From: Klebsiella pneumoniae | GTDB taxonomy: Bacteria > Pseudomonadota > Gammaproteobacteria > Eutrophobiales > Eutrophobiaceae | NCBI GenBank assembly: GCA_945870865.1 | Contig: CAMBTO010000005.1 | Span: 1 to 53,816, forward strand | Length of the DNA: 53,816 nt | Reading direction: 5' to 3' | Part shown: positions 4,485 through 42,884 of the stretch, in pieces | How the letters are laid out: each line of letters opens with the position of its first letter | Numbering within the stretch: the stretch's first letter is position 1 | Made by a program: the position numbers and the translations under genes | Notes under the pieces: generated by a model | Database searches by the model: none | What the model was told of the DNA's origin: nothing | What the model saw: only the letters and a program-made list of their open reading frames with translations

Positions 4485-4558
4485 CTATCCGAGACATATT
4501 TATTTACTCCTGGTTCAGCATGGCTACGTTATTTATTCCTGATTATACTTGACACACT

Positions 4559-4676
4559 CATCGGGGAGTAGCTTACCGCCAGCTGTTCGGCAGGGCCTAT
4601 GTCAACACACTTGATCGACAGATCATGGCACAGGTGGCATTGTTCGCCAGGCAAGACCTTTGACTACATTGCCCCG
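4559..4676 (+). promoter_or_regulatory. yybP-ykoY manganese riboswitch
   Basis: The leader of the downstream transporter carries the hallmark pieces of the yybP-ykoY Mn2+ riboswitch in the right order: GGGGAGTAGC at 4563-4572, GCCTATGTCAACACACT around 4595-4611, a GGCACAGGTGG segment, and AGGCAAGACCTTTGAC at 4649-4664, closed by GCCCCG, which can pair with the opening CGGGG. These are the two conserved loops that bring the Mn2+ site together. The element ends about 60 bases before the ATG at 4735, so either translational or transcriptional control is possible. Manganese would be expected to raise expression. Confidence 0.93.
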
Positions 4677-4734
4677 GACTGGCCGGGATCGATGCGGTCA
4701 TTCGTCTTTAATCTGGCCAGGGAGTATCAAAATA

Positions 4735-5310
4735 ATGGAAGCCTTCCTCGTCTCAACCGCCATCGTTGCACTCGCCGAGATTGGTGACAAAACCCAGTTA
4801 CTCGCGTTCATCCTCGCGGCCCGTTTTCGTACACCCTGGCCTATTATCCTCGGCATATTGGTCGCCACGTTCGCGAACCATGCCGTAGCCGCTGCACTCG
4901 GCAGCTGGATCACCTCGCTACTGGCACCGGAGACACTGCGCTGGTTACTGGGACTGGGCTTCATCGCGATTGCAATCTGGGTATTGATACCTGACAAGCT
5001 GGATGACACGAAGGCTACGCTGACCCGTTACGGCGTATTTGGCACCACACTGGTAACCTTCTTTCTCGCAGAAATCGGCGACAAGACCCAGATTGCCACG
5101 ATTGCACTGGCCGCGCAGTACCAGACGCTGATTGCCGTTGTGCTCGGCACTACCTTCGGCATGATGATCGCGAACGTGCCGGCGGTGTTGCTCGGAGAAC
5201 GGATTGCCAACCGCATCCCGGTGCGTACCGTACACATGATCGCAGCAGCGATCTTTTTCGTACTGGGAGTCGCCACCCTGTCAGGGATGGGTAGCCGGTT
5301 CGGATTCTAG
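4735..5310 (+). CDS. GDT1/TMEM165 (UPF0016) family cation transporter, probable Mn2+ exporter
   Basis: A 191-residue integral membrane protein with two repeats of the family signature: ALAEIGDKTQL near residue 11 and FLAEIGDKTQI near residue 111. Each E-x-G-D-K-T motif contributes acidic metal ligands, and about six membrane spans are present. Bacterial members export Mn2+ (MneA type), while eukaryotic ones handle Ca2+ and Mn2+. I chose the ATG at 4735 because a purine-rich AGGGAG lies upstream and the protein then begins at the usual MEAFLVS-type start. The upstream frame from 4660 belongs to the riboswitch. That riboswitch strongly supports a manganese role. Confidence 0.93.
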   Translation: MEAFLVSTAIVALAEIGDKTQLLAFILAARFRTPWPIILGILVATFANHAVAAALGSWITSLLAPETLRWLLGLGFIAIAIWVLIPDKLDDTKATLTRYGVFGTTLVTFFLAEIGDKTQIATIALAAQYQTLIAVVLGTTFGMMIANVPAVLLGERIANRIPVRTVHMIAAAIFFVLGVATLSGMGSRFGF

Positions 5311-10968: not shown

Positions 10969-11718
10969 ATGTTTGAATGGTTTAGTAGCCCGGAAGCCTG
11001 GATTTCCCTTGCAACTCTGACCGCGCTGGAGATCGTCCTCGGGATAGACAATATCATTTTCATATCCATCCTGGTTGGACGACTACCTGCACATCAACGC
11101 AACTACGCGAGAAACGTCGGTCTTGCCCTGGCCATGCTGACCCGGCTGGCACTCCTATTCTCAATTGCCTGGGTCATTGGCCTGGTCGAACCCTGGTTCA
11201 GTATTTTAGGCGAGGAGATATCTGGTCGTGACATCATTCTGATCGGTGGCGGTCTGTTTCTGCTTACCAAGGCCACCTCCGAGATACACAACAGTCTAGA
11301 AGGTGTAGAACATGATCATGCCGGCAACGTCGTTGCTGCAAACATGAATTCGGTCCTGTTCCAGATCGCCATTCTCGATATCGTATTTTCGCTCGACTCC
11401 GTAATCACCGCAGTGGGTCTCGCAGAACATGTATCGATCATGGCGATAGCAATCATTATTGCCGTTGCCATAATGCTGTTTGCAGCCAAACCAATCAGTG
11501 ATTTCGTCGACAAACATCCCACTCTCAAGATTCTTGCACTGTCCTTCCTGATTATGGTGGGCGCTGCCCTGATAGCAGAGGGCCTTGAATTCCATATATC
11601 CAAAGGTTACATCTATTTCGCGATGCTGTTCTCGGTCATTGTGGAAACTCTAAACATACGGATGCGCCAGGAAGTCAAACCGGTAGAGTTGCATAAAAAG
11701 CTCAGGGACCCTGACTAG
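10969..11718 (+). CDS. TerC family integral membrane protein
   Basis: A 249-residue membrane protein with about seven spans. It has the two acidic signatures of the family: ALEIVLGIDNIIFISIL near residues 18-34 and ILDIVFSLDSVITAVGLAE near residues 132-150. TerC proteins relate to tellurite resistance and, in several bacteria, to manganese efflux or metallation of exported proteins. The family is usually longer by about 70-100 residues; this short form without CBS or CorC domains is also common. It is downstream of the DUF411 gene and probably expressed with it. Confidence 0.9.
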   Translation: MFEWFSSPEAWISLATLTALEIVLGIDNIIFISILVGRLPAHQRNYARNVGLALAMLTRLALLFSIAWVIGLVEPWFSILGEEISGRDIILIGGGLFLLTKATSEIHNSLEGVEHDHAGNVVAANMNSVLFQIAILDIVFSLDSVITAVGLAEHVSIMAIAIIIAVAIMLFAAKPISDFVDKHPTLKILALSFLIMVGAALIAEGLEFHISKGYIYFAMLFSVIVETLNIRMRQEVKPVELHKKLRDPD

Positions 11719-12022
11719 AACCTACTTCTGGAACTAGAGAGCGGCTTTGTCAGGATTGTGGCCAGTCGCAGCCCGCCCCTCCCAGATGCCTGAATCAGGG
11801 GCAGGCTAACACTGACTCCCTTCAATCCATCGCTACCATAAGCAAAGTCGCCAGCACTGTGCCTATCGCTGCCGGTACACCATATTTCTACGAACTAGGG
11901 GGTCGGGAGTTCGAATCTCTCCGGGCGCGCCAAGGTTTCTAGACTCTTGAAATTATTTTCGTAAACATTGCCTGTATACATTTAGCTATACCTAAGGAGG
12001 GAATGATTACCTATAAATAATA
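11719..12022. other. Gene-free stretch with hairpin and tRNA fragment
   Basis: No gene is visible in these 304 bases. They hold an imperfect hairpin at 11771-11806 (10-base arms with one mismatch, 16-base loop) that could end the TerC transcript although no T-run follows, and the 3' part of a tRNA-Arg at 11885-11932 (listed separately). Beyond 11935 the sequence turns AT-rich. Confidence 0.45.
11885..11932 (+). repeat. tRNA-Arg(UCU) 3' fragment, probable att site relic
   Basis: These 48 bases read as the 3' half of a tRNA: a loop TTTCTAC with the anticodon TCT, a T-arm GGGAG TTCGAAT CTCTC, an acceptor strand CGGGCGC and GCCA at 11929-11932. The 5' half (D-arm and 5' acceptor strand) is absent upstream, and the variable region is slightly long, so this is not a working gene. 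Tyrosine-recombinase elements commonly leave such duplicated tRNA ends running from the anticodon loop to CCA. No integrase is seen nearby. Confidence 0.75.
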
Positions 12023-12457
12023 CTACACACTTAAAAATGCAACTATTTGAAGATTTTTTGGATTATCAGAACCAAATGCCTCATATGCCCAAAGTGTGCA
12101 CAGTCCCGCCAAAAGTATCCAAATGCCAATAATCACAGCTGTAGCGATTCGGTTCACTGGCTTTCCGCTCACCTCGACCTCGTGTACGTGAGCACGACAC
12201 TCGGCCAGAACATCTGGCGGGATAAGCTTTATGGCGACGGCTATTCCAAGGGGAATTAAGACCAAGTCATCGAGATATCCCAACACTGGCACGAAATCCG
12301 GAATAAGATCGATCGGACTGAGTGCGAACGCGGCTACGCCCGCCACGAACAACTTCGCGTACCACGGCGTTTGAGGATGCCGCGCTGCCAAATACAGGGC
12401 GTGCATCTCGCACTTGAGGTGACGTATGCGTTCCCTGAAGCTCTCTAGTAATGGCAC
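12023..12457 (-). CDS. YkvA family protein (DUF1232)
   Basis: A 144-residue membrane protein. The DUF1232 core lies at residues 30-80, with the diagnostic segment ALSPIDLIPDFVPVLGYLDDLVLIPLG. Two to three hydrophobic segments follow, the last at residues 105-130. The function of the family is unknown; members are widespread and often sit near heavy-metal or stress genes. The gene lies alone in an AT-rich stretch between the tRNA fragment and the P-type ATPase and may have arrived with them. Confidence 0.85.
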   Translation of the reverse strand: MPLLESFRERIRHLKCEMHALYLAARHPQTPWYAKLFVAGVAAFALSPIDLIPDFVPVLGYLDDLVLIPLGIAVAIKLIPPDVLAECRAHVHEVEVSGKPVNRIATAVIIGIWILLAGLCTLWAYEAFGSDNPKNLQIVAFLSV

Positions 12458-15973: not shown

Positions 15974-16816
15974 TCAACCGATTTCACCGCACGGGAGTAT
16001 CTCCGGTGCCCGCCCGTGACCAAGCACGACCATATGGTTTGGTGGCACGGTCTGCCAACCCGCATCGTCTGTCAGTTTTTCAGAACTAACGATGATTTCA
16101 CTCCCGGTTCCGTTTGCTTTCAAACAAGGTTCGTACAGACTACCGCTATACCAGTACAATGACTCGGGCTTACAATCCGGATCATTGGTATAACGGGAGA
16201 TCACCGCGTTTTTGCCATCGCCAACGGCGATGTTCAGATAACACGGCTCGCCATCACCATATTTTTTAACCACGTTTACCACACGTATTATCGCGGCATT
16301 CAGCGACTCGGCAATAGCCGTGGCAGTAATGTTCTTGCGCTTTAATAACTCGTCTATCACCACTGCAAAAAAATGTTCCGAATCGGTACTGCCATACACA
16401 TTACTAAACGCCTCATCGCCAATGGTTTCGAGCAGACGGCGGCGTATCTTGAAAAAATTACCAATATCGCCATTGTGCATAAACAATAGCTTGCCATATC
16501 TGAACGGATGGCAGTTCGCCTCGTTCACACCGCTGGACTGGGTTGCTGCGCGGACATGCGCATAAATACAGGGGCTGGCAACGACACGGGCGAGATTATG
16601 CAGATTGCGATTGTTCCAGGCCGGGGTGATTGAACGGAACACCGCCGGTTCATCAGTTAACCCGGTGGCGTACCATCCCACACCAAAACCGTCCCCATTT
16701 AGCGGCTCATCCCTTTCTGTACTATTCGAACTCTGGCGGATCAGTGAATGGGCCGGATCAATCAGCAAGGAGCTGAGCAAGATAGGCGGGCCCTGATAGA
16801 GTGTAAATCTGCACAT
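15974..16816 (-). CDS. Class II glutamine amidotransferase (EgtC/YafJ-like)
   Basis: A 280-residue N-terminal-nucleophile hydrolase. Cys2 right after the initiator Met is the expected catalytic residue, and the conserved GDGFGVGWY, HVRAAT, NCHPFRYGKLLFMHNGDI and DSEHFF segments are all present. Relatives include EgtC, which hydrolyses the gamma-glutamyl bond of an ergothioneine precursor, and YafJ-type proteins of unknown substrate. It is not fused to a synthetase domain. It is divergent, with a 146-base gap, from the operon encoding the C39-like peptidase, RimK-type ligase, GCS2 ligase and FGase. A matching role in removing gamma-glutamyl groups is plausible but inferred. Confidence 0.88.
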   Translation of the reverse strand: MCRFTLYQGPPILLSSLLIDPAHSLIRQSSNSTERDEPLNGDGFGVGWYATGLTDEPAVFRSITPAWNNRNLHNLARVVASPCIYAHVRAATQSSGVNEANCHPFRYGKLLFMHNGDIGNFFKIRRRLLETIGDEAFSNVYGSTDSEHFFAVVIDELLKRKNITATAIAESLNAAIIRVVNVVKKYGDGEPCYLNIAVGDGKNAVISRYTNDPDCKPESLYWYSGSLYEPCLKANGTGSEIIVSSEKLTDDAGWQTVPPNHMVVLGHGRAPEILPCGEIG

Positions 16817-16962
16817 GGTCGTTAGTGTGGCTCCGGGTCAGATGTGCCAAGTTTAGACCAGAAAGGAATCCAGAGGGTACTGAAATTTACGCATCAAAGT
16901 ATCACGCGGGACGGACAGTGTGCATTATACTGGCGCGATGAATAACCCGAACATCTGCGCCT

Positions 16963-17682
16963 ATGGACATTGAACTGCCTGTTGCCATCCAGCCGCAACC
17001 GGACAATTCCACCTGTGGCCCCACCTGCCTGCATGCGCTTTTGAATTATTATGGCTACCGGATCAGCCTGGATGATGTCATCAAGGACATCCAGATGTTA
17101 CAGGCGGGCGGGACTCTGGCTGTATTTCTGGCTTGTGCCGCATTAAAGCGTGGGTTCGATGCGACCATATATACGTACAATTTACAGATGTTTGACCCAA
17201 GCTGGTTTGCATCTGACGATATCGATATCGCCAGCAAGCTGCGTGCCCAGGCAAAAGAAAAAACCAGCAATAAACTGAAAGTAGCCACCCAAGGCTATCT
17301 GGAATTCCTGGAACTCGGTGGCAAACTGCAGTTTGTTGATCTGACCGCCAACCTCCTGCGGGGCATACTGAAACAAAGGATGCCTATTCTTACCGGACTG
17401 AGCGCTACCTATCTATATCGGGATAAACGTGAGTATGGGCCGAAAGATGAACACGATGATATCCGCGGTACGCCGGCCGGCCATTTTGTGCTACTAAACG
17501 GTTATCATCGCGAAGGACGGACCGTGCTAATCTCCGACCCACTGGTACCGAATCCCGCCGCACCGACGCAGGTCTACCCGGCCAACATTGATCGGGTCAT
17601 CTGCTCGATATTACTGGGTGTACTCACCCATGATGCAAATCTGCTTGTTATCCAGCCACATAAACATAATAATCATGACTGA
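16963..17682 (+). CDS. C39-like (papain-fold) cysteine peptidase
   Basis: A 239-residue cytoplasmic protein with a C39-like peptidase fold: Gln12 and Cys18 in PQPDNSTCGPTC, His174 in PAGHFVLLNGYH and Asp192 in ISDP give the full catalytic set. Unlike bacteriocin-exporter C39 domains it is not fused to an ABC transporter and has no membrane segment. A C-terminal His-rich tail (HKHNNHD) is odd but short. It begins the operon whose next gene, a RimK-type ligase, starts 3 bases after its stop. It may cleave or transfer a peptide linked to the product of that ligase. Confidence 0.87.
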   Translation: MDIELPVAIQPQPDNSTCGPTCLHALLNYYGYRISLDDVIKDIQMLQAGGTLAVFLACAALKRGFDATIYTYNLQMFDPSWFASDDIDIASKLRAQAKEKTSNKLKVATQGYLEFLELGGKLQFVDLTANLLRGILKQRMPILTGLSATYLYRDKREYGPKDEHDDIRGTPAGHFVLLNGYHREGRTVLISDPLVPNPAAPTQVYPANIDRVICSILLGVLTHDANLLVIQPHKHNNHD

Positions 17683-17685
17683 TCT

Positions 17686-19158
17686 ATGAACATCCTTCTG
17701 GTAGTCAACAACCCCAAGAACTGGCCGCTGAATATACCCGGCGTTACCGTCACGTCTGCGCGTGCCTACCTGACCGACCCGACCTACAGTGAGGATCGGA
17801 CGGCCAAGGTATTTAATCTGTGCCGTTCCTACAGCTACCAGAGCAGTGGTTATTATGTCTCCCTGCTGGCGGCAGCGCGTGGTCATAAACCGATGCCGGA
17901 CATCAACACGATACAGGATCTCAAATCGCAACATGTCATCCGGGTGCTGTCAGAAGATCTGGAACAACAGATTCAGGAAACGCTGAAGCGTCTGCAATCT
18001 AAAAAATTCACGCTCAGTATCTACTTTGGCAGGAACACGGCCAAACGTTATGACAACCTGAGTTTACGTCTATTCAACCTGTTCCGCGCGCCACTATTAA
18101 GGGCCACCTTTATCAAGCAGGAGAATAGCTGGCAGCTCGATTCAGTGCGCACCATTGCGGTCAGTGACATCCCGGAATCCCATCGCAATTTTGTCATCGA
18201 GGCAGCGTCGGATTATTTCAAGGGCAGTAAGCGTCGTCTGCGCAAGCGCTCTACACCGCGTTATGACATCGCCGTGTTGCATAACCCGACCGATACCTAT
18301 CCGCCCTCGAATGCCGCGGCGCTGAAAAAATTTCAGAAGGCCGCCGAATCAATCGATCTGGATTTCGAATTGATTACCCGAAATGATCTGCACCGTCTGG
18401 CCGAGTTTGATGCACTGTTCATCCGCGAGACCACGGCGGTGAATCACTACACCTTCCGTTTTGCCCAGCGCGCTCAGGCCGAGGGTCTGATCGTCATGGA
18501 CGATCCGGACTCAATACTGAAATGTTCAAACAAGGTCTACCTGGCCGAACTGATGGCCCGACATTCCGTGCCGATACCCAAAACGCTTATCATCCATCGC
18601 AACAACATTAACAAGATTGTCGAGGTGCTCGGCATCCCGGTCATTCTCAAACAGCCGGACAGTGCCTTCTCGATGGGTGTAACCAAGATCGAACGCGAGG
18701 ATGAGCTTGAGGAGGCGGTCAGCCGCCTGCTGGAGAAGTCTGATCTGATCGTCGCACAGGAATTCCTGCCGACAGACTTTGACTGGCGCGTCGGTATCTG
18801 TGACCGCAGACCCCTGTTCGTCTGCCGCTACCATATGGCCAGCCGACACTGGCAGGTCATCAAGCGAGACGAGGCTGGCAATACCAGCGGTGAAGGCAGC
18901 GTGGATACATTGTCTATCAGCGAGGCACCTGACGAGGTCATCAAGACCGCCTTGAAGGCGGCCAACCTGATCGGAGATGGCCTGTATGGTGTCGATATCA
19001 AACAGGTGGGACAGAAATGTTATGTCATTGAGGTAAATGACAACCCGAATATTGATGCCGGTTCCGAAGACCAGGTGCTAAAGGACGCGCTGTACCGCGA
19101 GATCATGGGCACCTTCCTCAAGCGTATTGAAAACAGAAAGCGCGGCCTGAATACCTGA
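17686..19158 (+). CDS. RimK family ATP-grasp ligase with RLAN-type N-terminal domain
   Basis: A 490-residue enzyme that should form an amide bond between a carboxylate (typically glutamate) and an amine with ATP. The N-terminal part, about residues 1-190, resembles the RimK-like ATP-grasp N-terminal (RLAN) domain, and the C-terminal part from about residue 205 is a RimK-like ATP-grasp. It contains VILKQPDSAFSMGV (ATP-binding lysine), VAQEFLPTDFDWRVGI and the Mg2+-binding EVNDNPNI. It is much longer than ribosomal-protein S6 ligase RimK (about 300 residues), so S6 is not the presumed target. It shares its last base with the start of the GCS2 gene, which points to tight coupling. Confidence 0.92.
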   Translation: MNILLVVNNPKNWPLNIPGVTVTSARAYLTDPTYSEDRTAKVFNLCRSYSYQSSGYYVSLLAAARGHKPMPDINTIQDLKSQHVIRVLSEDLEQQIQETLKRLQSKKFTLSIYFGRNTAKRYDNLSLRLFNLFRAPLLRATFIKQENSWQLDSVRTIAVSDIPESHRNFVIEAASDYFKGSKRRLRKRSTPRYDIAVLHNPTDTYPPSNAAALKKFQKAAESIDLDFELITRNDLHRLAEFDALFIRETTAVNHYTFRFAQRAQAEGLIVMDDPDSILKCSNKVYLAELMARHSVPIPKTLIIHRNNINKIVEVLGIPVILKQPDSAFSMGVTKIEREDELEEAVSRLLEKSDLIVAQEFLPTDFDWRVGICDRRPLFVCRYHMASRHWQVIKRDEAGNTSGEGSVDTLSISEAPDEVIKTALKAANLIGDGLYGVDIKQVGQKCYVIEVNDNPNIDAGSEDQVLKDALYREIMGTFLKRIENRKRGLNT

Positions 19159-20411
19159 TGCCTGAGACCAAGCGACCCCTGGGACTGTTTGAGGCCTACG
19201 GTATAGAGCTGGAATACATGATAGTCGGTCGCGACACGCTGGATGTGTTGCCGGTGTCGGACCAGTTGATCAAGTCAGTGGCGGGCGAATACATCAACGA
19301 AGTCGAACAGGGACCGGTGGCCTGGTCAAATGAAGTAGTCCTGCATGTAATAGAAATGAAGTCGAACGGACCGGTGCCGTCGCTTTCTGTGCTACCGGGA
19401 CAGTTCCAGACCAGTATCAACAGCATTAACGCTATCCTCGACAATATGGACGGCAGGTTGTTGCCAACCGCGATGCACCCGTGGATGAACCCGTTCCTGC
19501 ATACCCGGCTGTGGCCGCACGGCAACTCCGAGATCTATGACGCCTATAACCGCATCTTCAACTGCGAGGGCCACGGCTGGTCGAACCTGCAAAGCATGCA
19601 TATCAACCTGCCGTTTGCAGACGATGTCGAGTTTGCCACACTGCACAGCGCAATCCGGTTGATATTACCGGTACTGCCCGCGATTGCGGCCAGCTCCCCC
19701 ATTATGGAGGGTGAACTGACCGGCATGATGGACACCCGTCTTGAGACCTATCGCCGTAATGCGGAAATTATCCCGAGCATCACCGGTCTGGTCGTCCCTG
19801 AACCTGTTACTTCACAAGCCGAATACGAACGTGTCATCCTGCAACCGATGTACCGGGACATCGCCCCGTATGATCCGGACGGGATCCTGCAGGAGGAATG
19901 GCTGAATTCGCGCGGGGCGATCGCAAAGTTTGAACGTAATGCTCTCGAGATCCGGGTGCTGGATGTACAGGAGACACCCGTCGCTGATCTCGCCATTGCC
20001 AGCCTGATCGTCGCTGTGCTGAAAAAACTAACGGCGAACGAATGGGCTGACCAGCCTGAACAACTGACGATCTCGACCGAGGCGCTGGCTGCGATCTTTA
20101 CCGACACGATCCGGTTTGCAGAACGGACTGTGATCGACAACCGTGATTTCCTGCGTCTGTTCAGATATCCGGAACATCGCTGTGAGGCACGCGAATTCTG
20201 GCAGTACCTCTATGAATCTGTAGCTTCGGGACTTGAACAGGGATACACCGGACGAGACCAGGCACTACGGTTGATCCTGGAATCCGGCCCGCTGGCACGT
20301 CGTATAGCCAAACCCCTACTGAAAGGCTACCGCCGATCCAAACTGCATGAGATCTACCGCGTGTTATCCGAGTGTCTGGCGCAGGGCCAATTGTTTGAAG
20401 GCATCGACTAG
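19158..20411 (+). CDS. GCS2-type glutamate-amine ligase
   Basis: A 417-residue protein of the glutamate-cysteine ligase family 2 (GCS2) within the glutamine-synthetase-like fold. Support comes from FEAYGIELEYMIVG near the N-terminus (metal-binding Glu residues), NEVVLHVIEMKSNGP, GWSNLQSMHINLPF and ALEIRVLDVQETP. Such enzymes ligate the gamma-carboxyl of glutamate to an amine, as in EgtA or YbdK. Its substrate need not be cysteine, since glutathione synthesis has gshB elsewhere in this window but no gshA. Its ATG follows the RimK gene with a one-base overlap, and the next gene overlaps its end. Confidence 0.9.
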   Translation: MPETKRPLGLFEAYGIELEYMIVGRDTLDVLPVSDQLIKSVAGEYINEVEQGPVAWSNEVVLHVIEMKSNGPVPSLSVLPGQFQTSINSINAILDNMDGRLLPTAMHPWMNPFLHTRLWPHGNSEIYDAYNRIFNCEGHGWSNLQSMHINLPFADDVEFATLHSAIRLILPVLPAIAASSPIMEGELTGMMDTRLETYRRNAEIIPSITGLVVPEPVTSQAEYERVILQPMYRDIAPYDPDGILQEEWLNSRGAIAKFERNALEIRVLDVQETPVADLAIASLIVAVLKKLTANEWADQPEQLTISTEALAAIFTDTIRFAERTVIDNRDFLRLFRYPEHRCEAREFWQYLYESVASGLEQGYTGRDQALRLILESGPLARRIAKPLLKGYRRSKLHEIYRVLSECLAQGQLFEGID

Positions 20412-21093
20412 TCAGCTGCTGATCTCGTGCGAGCATGGTGGAAACCGGATACCTGCCGCTTATCGACATCTGTTTGCCGTAAACACCGCTGTGCTGGATA
20501 CGCATCGCGGGTTTGATATCGGTGCGCTGGAAATCGCCAGGGCGATTTCCAAGTCACTCAAGGCACCCTTTCACTCTGCACAAACCAGCCGTTTGCTGGT
20601 CGACCTGAATCGTTCACTGCATCACCGCAAACTGTACTCCGAATTCACCCGCGACTGTGACGAGCAGATTCGCCATCAGATCTTCGAAAAATATTACCGC
20701 CCATATCGACAGGCACTGGAGCAACAAGTACGCAAGATGATCGCTGCATCCGGCAGCGTGATTCATATATCCGTACATTCCTTTAGCCCGGTACTGAACG
20801 GACAGGTGAGAAACGCCGATATCGGTCTGTTATATGACCCCGCGCGTCAACGGGAAAAGGCGTTCTGTGCAAGACTGAAGTCCGCACTGGACCAGTCCGC
20901 GATCGGCGTGACCCGGCTGAACTATCCCTACCGCGGCAACGCAGACGGCCTGACCACCTACCTGCGCCGCAGCCTGCCCGCAAGAGCCTATATCGGCATC
21001 GAGATTGAGATTAACCAGAACCGGGCGGTGGTTGATGAAAAATTGGTAAGCACGGTATTGACCCACTCACTGCGCAGCGCGATCGAACAATAA
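20395..21093 (+). CDS. N-formylglutamate amidohydrolase (FGase) family protein
   Basis: About 232 residues with the FGase signature: LLISCEHGGNRIP near the start, DTHRGFDIGALEIA, LLVDLNRSLHH, VIHISVHSFSP and YIGIEIEINQ. In the family these supply metal-binding His/Glu/Asp residues that hydrolyse N-formyl-glutamate or related amides. The start is uncertain: the domain begins almost at once, so I favour the TTG at 20395, overlapping the GCS2 end by 17 bases; the ATG at 20347 adds a stretch that does not resemble the family. As the last gene of the ligase operon it probably removes an N-acyl or glutamyl group in the same pathway rather than acting in histidine breakdown. Confidence 0.88.
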   Translation: MKASTSQLLISCEHGGNRIPAAYRHLFAVNTAVLDTHRGFDIGALEIARAISKSLKAPFHSAQTSRLLVDLNRSLHHRKLYSEFTRDCDEQIRHQIFEKYYRPYRQALEQQVRKMIAASGSVIHISVHSFSPVLNGQVRNADIGLLYDPARQREKAFCARLKSALDQSAIGVTRLNYPYRGNADGLTTYLRRSLPARAYIGIEIEINQNRAVVDEKLVSTVLTHSLRSAIEQ

Positions 21094-21095
21094 CC

Positions 21096-21494
21096 CTATT
21101 TCGCGTCCGGTTTGATCCCGAACAATTCGGCAAGTTTACGGCGAGAATCTTCTTCAGCACTCGCTGCCGGTTGCTGTTCACCCACAGCGTTACCCAGTCC
21201 AAACAAGGCATCAAGCTGGCTTTTCGCCGCACTCGCCCCAGGCTTGGCAGACTTAAGACTGGCCTCTGGGTCCGGCTGGTAGTAACCACAGAAATTACTA
21301 CGCTGTTTGTCTGTCACCTTCTCGGCGACCGGCTCGGTGCAGCTGTTACTGACAGTCGGATCATAAAAGCGGCACATCTTACACACATGCAGGTCTGCAT
21401 TACACGCCCTGCACTTTGCCAGACGCGCGACCGGCATCAGCAATTCTTCAATCGCAGTTGCGCATTTCCAGCAGCTGAATCCAGATGTCTTCAT
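21096..21494 (-). CDS. Cysteine-rich small protein, probable zinc-binding
   Basis: A 132-residue protein without signal peptide or membrane span. The first 70 residues carry about eight cysteines in paired patterns: CWKC, CRAC, CKMC and then single Cys in NSC and FC. This is the look of a two-site zinc ribbon or rubredoxin-like knuckle. The rest is a low-complexity linker rich in Ala, Lys and Ser, then a C-terminal helix RKLAELFGI. I recall similar hypothetical proteins in marine gammaproteobacteria, but no function. It lies convergently 2 bases after the FGase gene and is transcribed towards it. Confidence 0.7.
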   Translation of the reverse strand: MKTSGFSCWKCATAIEELLMPVARLAKCRACNADLHVCKMCRFYDPTVSNSCTEPVAEKVTDKQRSNFCGYYQPDPEASLKSAKPGASAAKSQLDALFGLGNAVGEQQPAASAEEDSRRKLAELFGIKPDAK

Positions 21495-41927: not shown

Positions 41928-42884
41928 ATGAAACTCGGCGTCGTCATGGATCCCATAACCGGGATCAATATAAAAAAGGACAGTACCTTTGCCATGTTGC
42001 TCGCGGCGAGCAAACGTGGCTGGGAGCTCTGTTACATGGAGCAGAAGGACCTGTTTATCGAGGACCACGAGGCCCGGGCGCAAGTCCGTGTACTCACTGT
42101 ACAGGATGATAAATCAAATTGGTTCACGTTTCATCAGCCGTCCACCATCGCGCTGACGGAACTGGATGCGCTGCTGATGCGCAAAGACCCGCCGTTTGAT
42201 ATCGAATACATCTATACCACCTACATACTCGAACTCGCACAAAAGTCCGGCCTGCTGGTGGTAAACGACCCGCGCAGCCTGCGTGATGTGAACGAGAAGA
42301 TGTTTATCAACAACTTCCCGCAGTGTATCGCGCCTACGCTGGTCAGCCGCAACCATGAACAACTGCTCGGTTTTATCAAACAGCAGGGGGTGGCCGTGTT
42401 AAAACCGCTCGAAGGCATGGGCGGCAAGTCGGTATTCAAGGTCACCCACGGCGATCCGAACACCAATGTGATCATCGAAACGCTGACCGACAGTCACAAG
42501 CGCTACATCATGGCGCAACGCTATCTACCCGAGATCGCGCAGGGGGACAAACGTATCCTGCTGATCGACGGTGAACCGGTCGATTATGCGCTCGCTCGCA
42601 TACCGATGGCCGGCGAGAACCGCGGCAATCTGGCCGCCGGTGGCACAGGCAAGGGTGTGGCGCTGAGTGAGCGTGACCGCTGGATCTGTGCCGAGGTTGG
42701 CCCGACCTTGCGTGAACGTGGCCTGATGTTTGTCGGACTCGATGTGATCGGTGACTACCTGACCGAGATCAACGTGACCAGCCCGACCTGTATCCGCGAG
42801 CTGGAAAAGATTTACACATTAGATATCGCCGGCAAACTGATCGACACGATTGCGGCCAGAGTCAACTCCCGGCGTGGGCATTGA
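41928..42884 (+). CDS. gshB: Glutathione synthetase
   Basis: GshB adds glycine to gamma-glutamylcysteine. The 318-residue prokaryotic type starts at the ATG at 41928 (MKLGVVMDPI), a canonical opening; the frame is open from 41637 but that part overlaps hemC antisense. ATP-grasp landmarks are present: VLKPLEGMGGKSVF, YLPEIAQGDKRILLIDGEP and VGLDVIGDYLTEINVTSPTC. It is followed after 33 bases by tonB in the gshB-tonB-yqgE-ruvX-pyrR order known from Pseudomonas. There is no gshA in the window. Confidence 0.96.
   Translation: MKLGVVMDPITGINIKKDSTFAMLLAASKRGWELCYMEQKDLFIEDHEARAQVRVLTVQDDKSNWFTFHQPSTIALTELDALLMRKDPPFDIEYIYTTYILELAQKSGLLVVNDPRSLRDVNEKMFINNFPQCIAPTLVSRNHEQLLGFIKQQGVAVLKPLEGMGGKSVFKVTHGDPNTNVIIETLTDSHKRYIMAQRYLPEIAQGDKRILLIDGEPVDYALARIPMAGENRGNLAAGGTGKGVALSERDRWICAEVGPTLRERGLMFVGLDVIGDYLTEINVTSPTCIRELEKIYTLDIAGKLIDTIAARVNSRRGH

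Follow-up and report, generated by a model that had tools for sequence, protein, structure and literature searches.

We describe a conserved operon in a 53,816-nucleotide stretch of Klebsiella pneumoniae DNA (GenBank assembly GCA_945870865.1, contig CAMBTO010000005.1; hereafter the window), in which genes for a papain-like C39 enzyme, an RLAN-RimK amide ligase, a GCS2-family gamma-glutamyl ligase and an FGase-family hydrolase follow one another on the plus strand. These four genes are a real conserved unit, for which chance is excluded because the same arrangement recurs in most of the 78 loci of a cross-bacteria scan covering many phyla. The RLAN-RimK ligase occurs with one of two partners, GCS2 or a RimI-like GNAT, and never with both. 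We propose, at a probability of about 0.5, that the operon encodes one small pathway building and trimming a glutamate-containing amide, likeliest an amino-acid conjugate or a short peptide with a cap. A preliminary description of the locus had joined these genes and a divergent class-II glutamine amidotransferase (GAT-II) into a unit serving one pathway, with enzymes that form amides and enzymes that break them; co-occurrence sustains this idea for the four-gene core, but not for GAT-II as a member.

Conservation of the four-gene core

In a set of 58 related genomes, 13 have C39, GCS2 and a full-length RLAN-RimK together, and no others have C39 or GCS2 orthologues; three more distant genomes (G050, G051 and G055) have RLAN-RimK without C39 or GCS2 orthologues. 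FGase is present in 11 of the 13 operon-bearing relatives; as to the exceptions, the contig of G027 stops inside GCS2 and in G016 no FGase was found. On another contig of G023 we observed an FGase homologue (L040:7750-8375) that is unlinked to the operon and split across two frames.

The wider scan used an RLAN-RimK profile against one genome per species, and the best 80 of at least 586 relatives were kept; two of these duplicated members of the related set and were left out, giving the 78 scan loci, which were picked by similarity to the window, so that the conservation seen in them is biased towards near relatives. C39 lies immediately 5' of RLAN-RimK in 66 of the 78 loci, GCS2 lies immediately 3' of it in the same number, and FGase comes after GCS2 in 40. 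The fixed order C39, RLAN-RimK, GCS2, FGase is kept in a dozen phyla, the GCS2 class of loci being represented in Planctomycetota, Pseudomonadota, Bacteroidota, Thermodesulfobacteriota, Myxococcota, Nitrospirota, Verrucomicrobiota, Spirochaetota, Balneolota and others. The local synteny of the window's own family aside, no further conserved gene or carrier was found within 8 kb among open frames of 70 residues or more, a limit below which a small peptide substrate could escape. With no other conserved neighbour, the four-gene module therefore looks self-contained. Genes annotated as RimK family, GCS2 family and FGase stand in the same order on plasmid 27 of Legionella adelaidensis (L121:41-3232). 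FGase and YbdK-like GCS2 genes are adjacent in G035 (L151:9160-11167), a genome without RLAN-RimK, and the FGase-GCS2 pairing thus also exists outside the operon.

GAT-II is an optional accessory of a few lineages and not part of the core, which rules out a five-gene unit. The preliminary description had expected all five genes to co-occur, and the neighbourhood search bore this out for C39, RLAN-RimK, GCS2 and FGase, whereas GAT-II adjoins the operon in only one of the 78 scan loci. A close orthologue (at least 46% identity) was found in nine of the 13 operon-bearing relatives versus none of the 45 other relatives, the remaining four operon-bearing genomes having no GAT-II or a distant paralogue only. 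Even where the orthologue is present, its contig is not that of the operon in three genomes (G019, G023 and G040), and the flanks show it to be unlinked in G023 and G040; outside the window's family a good match was seen in only two or three of 34 operon-bearing genomes. The parallel with EgtA and EgtC of ergothioneine synthesis that had been drawn for the locus holds insofar as GAT-II is EgtC-like but, GAT-II being optional, it covers the accessory and not the core.

Alternative partners of the RLAN-RimK ligase

An even draw from the phylum (398 genomes, with loci taken one or two per family) gives a fairer sample of RLAN-RimK overall and is dominated by loci of a second class. RLAN was found in 72 of these genomes, and nearly all of the evenly drawn loci have a RimI-like GNAT beside RLAN-RimK in place of GCS2, the GNAT being most often fused to the C39-type domain DUF3335. 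When 125 RLAN-RimK loci were classified, 78 had GCS2 only, 35 had GNAT only, 12 had neither and none had both, so that the two partners are mutually exclusive. FGase occurs in 49 of the 78 GCS2 loci versus none of the 35 GNAT loci and tracks GCS2 more closely than RLAN-RimK. Homology between the C39 domains of the two classes is supported by hhalign (97.3%, E 1.6e-11). GNAT matches in the 13 GCS2-class relatives reach at most 51 bits and are ordinary RimI-like proteins, versus 435-816 bits in G050, G051 and G055. The best match in the window's genome scores 42 bits and lies on a different contig; there is no GNAT in the window's locus, which is hence not an instance of the GNAT-DUF3335 plus RLAN-RimK system.

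In the tree of the RLAN-RimK ligases the partner changes twice. Two loci (L106 and L115) are nested in the GCS2 clade (SH-aLRT 66-73) and have a GNAT directly 3' of RLAN-RimK, and another (L114) is sister to a GCS2 locus (support 99) and its GNAT is separated from RLAN-RimK by two genes, a distance of about 2.3 kb. No GCS2 match was found in the genomes of these three loci. Within the GCS2 clade, one or two lineages have exchanged GCS2 for GNAT. Elsewhere, GNAT, RLAN and RimK form a single open frame of 667 residues (L149:5056-7056, minus strand); two genomes of the same genus (G411 and G415) likewise have long RLAN frames. A fusion of GNAT and ATP-grasp, as in this frame, also occurs in the N-acetylglutaminylglutamine amide (NAGGN) system. 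The GNAT of the second class resembles RimI, which is a protein N-terminal acetyltransferase. According to a review that cites Iyer et al. 2009, proteins with DUF3335 are often fused to GNATs, and these GNATs may be peptide ligases or acetylators (PMC10318531).

The ligase is the same in both classes (42-46% identity in relatives) and their C39-type peptidases are homologous, but the class of the window has GCS2, and usually FGase, where the other has GNAT. The general class, including neighbourhoods of GNAT-DUF3335 (papain-like) and RLAN-RimK, was reportedly treated in the amidoligase survey of Iyer et al. 2009 (doi 10.1039/b917682a). What is new here is the partner swap and the census of loci; the operon itself may already be drawn in that survey, and full-text literature searches found no report of the combination of C39, RLAN-RimK, GCS2 and FGase genes. 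A homologue of RLAN-RimK on the Pseudomonas aeruginosa plasmid pZYPA1927 (L122:7905-9494), which we take to be PA1345, has no GNAT or GCS2 nearby and is close to gamma-glutamyltransferase and glutamate transport genes. For PA1345, a motif-predicted CpxR site has been listed that was not seen by DAP-Seq (PMC12802237).

Predicted chemistry and competing explanations

Open reading frames and Pfam matches confirm the five protein families of the preliminary description, together with their coordinates and spacings (three bases or an overlap within the operon, 146 bp to the divergent gene): GATase_4, Peptidase_C39/C39_2, RLAN, RimK, GCS2 and FGase all exceed their cut-offs (Table 1), while none of the five proteins reaches the cut-off of a named NCBIfam model among matches at E up to 0.001. 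The central ligase has the architecture of its family, RLAN (PF14401) followed by the RimK ATP-grasp domain (PF08443). As had been claimed, it is not the S6-modifying glutamate ligase RimK (NF007764 38.6 bits versus a cut-off of 331; 490 residues with RLAN versus about 300), and TIGR03103, the NAGGN synthetase model, is absent from its NCBIfam matches. Its relatives in phages match the ATP-grasp part only, at about 28%. GCS2 is neither GshA nor YbdK by the models TIGR02050, TIGR02048 and NF010039, the best score being 48.9 bits (YbdK subfamily) versus 176.4.

The catalytic residues, previously judged intact in all five proteins, are indeed unchanged throughout the alignments, which hold 10 to 57 orthologues each, one truncated C39 row excepted. 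The papain-type residues Q12, C18, H174 and D192 of C39 are kept in 46/46, 46/46, 47/47 and 47/47 of the rows that have a residue there, and invariance extends to K283, K322, D437, E449 and N451 of the RLAN-RimK ATP-grasp domain, to E17, E19, E59, R194, E264 and R266 of GCS2, to the putative metal-site residues E29, H30, H53, H140 and H144 of FGase (38 orthologues) and to Cys2 of GAT-II.

The ATP-grasp part of the RLAN-RimK AlphaFold model (residues 193-482; pLDDT of the model 89.7) is closest in fold to ArgX (Z 28.2, 267 residues, 2.4 A), LysX (Z 28.1) and RimK (Z 27.1). All three couple an amino acid to a protein carboxylate, and the chemistry of RLAN-RimK is therefore likely to be similar. 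ArgX and LysX, which serve LysW-linked arginine and lysine synthesis, are nonetheless only about 18-20% identical to it; the window protein adds RLAN, and no amino-acid synthesis genes recur near the operon. The motif after its metal ligands, EVNDNPN, presumably differs from the equivalent motif of ArgX, LysX and RimK. No fold match was listed for the RLAN domain in a structure search that was dominated by the ATP-grasp part and hence is uninformative on the RLAN fold; a duplicated pre-ATP-grasp domain was ruled out (hhalign probability 0.5%). Among solved structures, the GCS2 profile matches YbdK 1r8g and plant GCL 9ufc, FGase matches 2odf (E 1.4e-18), and 3mdn and EgtC 4zfj are nearest to GAT-II.

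The C39 model (pLDDT 94.6), of a protein without an ABC transporter domain, is about equally near double-glycine C39 peptidases (Z 16.2, 135 residues) and Alr0975 (Z 16.0, 161 residues), a phytochelatin synthase that transfers gamma-glutamylcysteine, and because of this both hydrolysis and transfer are possible for the enzyme. The nearness to Alr0975 would also suit a thiol pathway, in which GCS2 would make gamma-Glu-Cys or an analogue, RLAN-RimK would extend it, C39 would act like phytochelatin synthase and GAT-II would remove gamma-Glu as EgtC does, the more so as the GCS2 family includes EgtA and plant-type GCL and GAT-II is EgtC-like. We consider such a pathway improbable: a canonical glutathione synthetase (GshB) is kept in all 13 operon-bearing relatives and lies inside the window itself (41928-42857), so that glutathione is not replaced by the operon, and no conserved sulfur or metal gene is found near the operon among open frames of 70 residues or more. 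Nor is the pathway ergothioneine, since EgtD (PF10017) has no match in the window's genome (estimated 100% complete), as had been noted, and is also missing from six other genomes of the 13. The window shares a GCS2-family ligase and an EgtC-like amidotransferase with the EgtA/EgtC system, but GAT-II falls below the EgtC cut-off (TIGR03442 199 bits versus 218.65) despite its Cys2, and an ATP-grasp ligase and a C39 enzyme are present.

In the pathway that we propose instead, RLAN-RimK would couple the amine of an amino acid, probably glutamate, to an acceptor carboxylate at the expense of ATP, as ArgX, LysX and RimK do, and GCS2, likewise with ATP, would attach a gamma-glutamyl group to an amine, GCS2 and the RimI-like GNAT being candidate alternative acylating partners of RLAN-RimK. 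C39 would cut or transfer an amide of the product or of a precursor. FGase, whose named chemistry strips an acyl group off the amine of glutamate by hydrolysis, would remove an N-acyl-glutamate unit and so reverse the RimK-type ligation. In genomes that have it, the EgtC-like GAT-II would remove a gamma-glutamyl unit and so reverse the action of GCS2; for both of these enzymes the role is the one that the family suggests. We infer the reactions, their order, the use of glutamate and the small size of the product. A narrower version, which we would put forward only tentatively, is that RLAN-RimK is the constant ligase of a new class of N-capped glutamyl peptides or conjugates spread over the bacterial phyla, where GCS2 (gamma-glutamyl) or GNAT (acyl) would set the cap and C39 would finish by transfer, not simple proteolysis. 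The logic of acyltransferase, ATP-grasp ligase, amidotransferase and peptidase is also that of the NAGGN trio (TIGR03103, amidotransferase and M42 peptidase); the window differs in that its ligase lacks a TIGR03103 match, its amidotransferase is EgtC-like and stand-alone, and GCS2 would set the cap.

FGase takes its name from N-formylglutamate deformylase, which might suggest a role in the breakdown of histidine or formylglutamate, and since operons can hold unrelated genes, the locus might also be a grouping of housekeeping genes with no pathway in common. Either seems very improbable to us, given that FGase scores 32 bits with the HutG deformylase model (TIGR02017) versus a cut-off of 278.75, that the same gene order is found across a dozen phyla and that gain and loss of the genes coincide in the relatives.

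We favour a small-molecule product over protein modification because the module is self-contained, without a conserved target gene. The operon could instead serve reversible protein tagging, in which RLAN-RimK would add glutamate to a protein C-terminus or side chain and GCS2 would branch it with a gamma-glutamyl group, while removal of the tags would fall to C39, FGase and GAT-II. We regard this as a possible, though rather unlikely, explanation. In its favour, the nearest fold relatives of the ATP-grasp part, ArgX/LysX and RimK, act on protein C-termini, the sister-class GNAT is similar to RimI, most loci hold an intact cysteine peptidase, and RimK and RimB are a published pair that writes and erases (PMC12239564). 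RimK/RimB and RloABC likewise combine a RimK-type ATP-grasp protein with a protease, but the protease of the window is papain-like, not retropepsin-like, and the window adds the RLAN domain, GCS2 and FGase. Tagging is further opposed by the lack of a conserved small carrier or target gene among the open frames tested and by scores far from the equivalog cut-offs of LysX and RimK.

Several points weigh against the small pathway that we prefer. The closest fold relatives of the ATP-grasp part act on proteins, the substrate of the peptidase found in most loci could equally be a protein or a small compound, and the loci hold no gene that hints at any one metabolite. FGase is missing in 29 of the 78 GCS2 loci, some of which are cut by contig ends. 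The exclusivity of GNAT and GCS2 rests on only two switches on the tree, and clade history alone could therefore explain much of it; moreover, the nested position of L106 and L115 is modestly supported, the GNAT of L114 is not adjacent to the RLAN-RimK gene, and the molecules on which GNAT and GCS2 act need not be the same.

Layout of the locus and prospects

Three bases separate C39 from RLAN-RimK, RLAN-RimK and GCS2 overlap by one base (TGATG), and the FGase frame as called overlaps GCS2 by 65 bp. The real start of FGase may lie further downstream, for instance at the TTG at 20395, because conservation begins only at about residue 22. A putative promoter between GAT-II and C39 is suggested by the gene layout alone, as promoter-like matches in this region were no commoner than in shuffles. 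At the operon, a terminator scan gave nothing beyond the level of shuffles and no RNA elements were found at Rfam gathering thresholds.

Table 1. Genes of the operon and its divergent neighbour, in window coordinates.
Feature	Position	Strand	Evidence and status
GAT-II: class-II glutamine amidotransferase (NTN hydrolase), EgtC-like, Cys2	15974-16816	-	GATase_4 63.5 bits; optional accessory
Divergent intergenic region GAT-II/C39, 146 bp	16817-16962		ORF coordinates
C39: stand-alone papain-like enzyme, Q12-C18-H174-D192	16963-17682	+	Pfam Peptidase_C39_2 and C39; core
RLAN-RimK: RLAN and RimK-type ATP-grasp amide ligase, 490 aa	17686-19158	+	RLAN 173.5 bits, RimK 49.3 bits; core
GCS2-family gamma-glutamyl (carboxylate-amine) ligase	19158-20411	+	GCS2 84.8 bits; core in GCS2 class
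FGase-family (N-formylglutamate amidohydrolase fold) hydrolase	20347-21093	+	FGase 95.7 bits; frequent member of GCS2 class

Convergent with FGase lies a gene for a small cysteine-rich protein (21096-21494, minus strand) without a Pfam or NCBIfam match, and a similar open frame adjoins the operon in G002 (L022, about 11614-12108). Elsewhere in the window, a yybP-ykoY manganese riboswitch (4551-4725, plus strand; 64.6 bits) lies directly 5' of a gene (about 4735-5310) whose product, a small membrane protein, has an EIGDKTQ motif and is probably a manganese exporter of the UPF0016/GDT1 type; this is an ordinary pairing.

The RLAN-RimK module is retained in hundreds of genomes and its four-gene form spans a dozen phyla. 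The substitution of GNAT and GCS2 for one another beside the same ligase makes the proposed pathway testable, and a comparison of the two classes would help to solve the structure of the product by difference.

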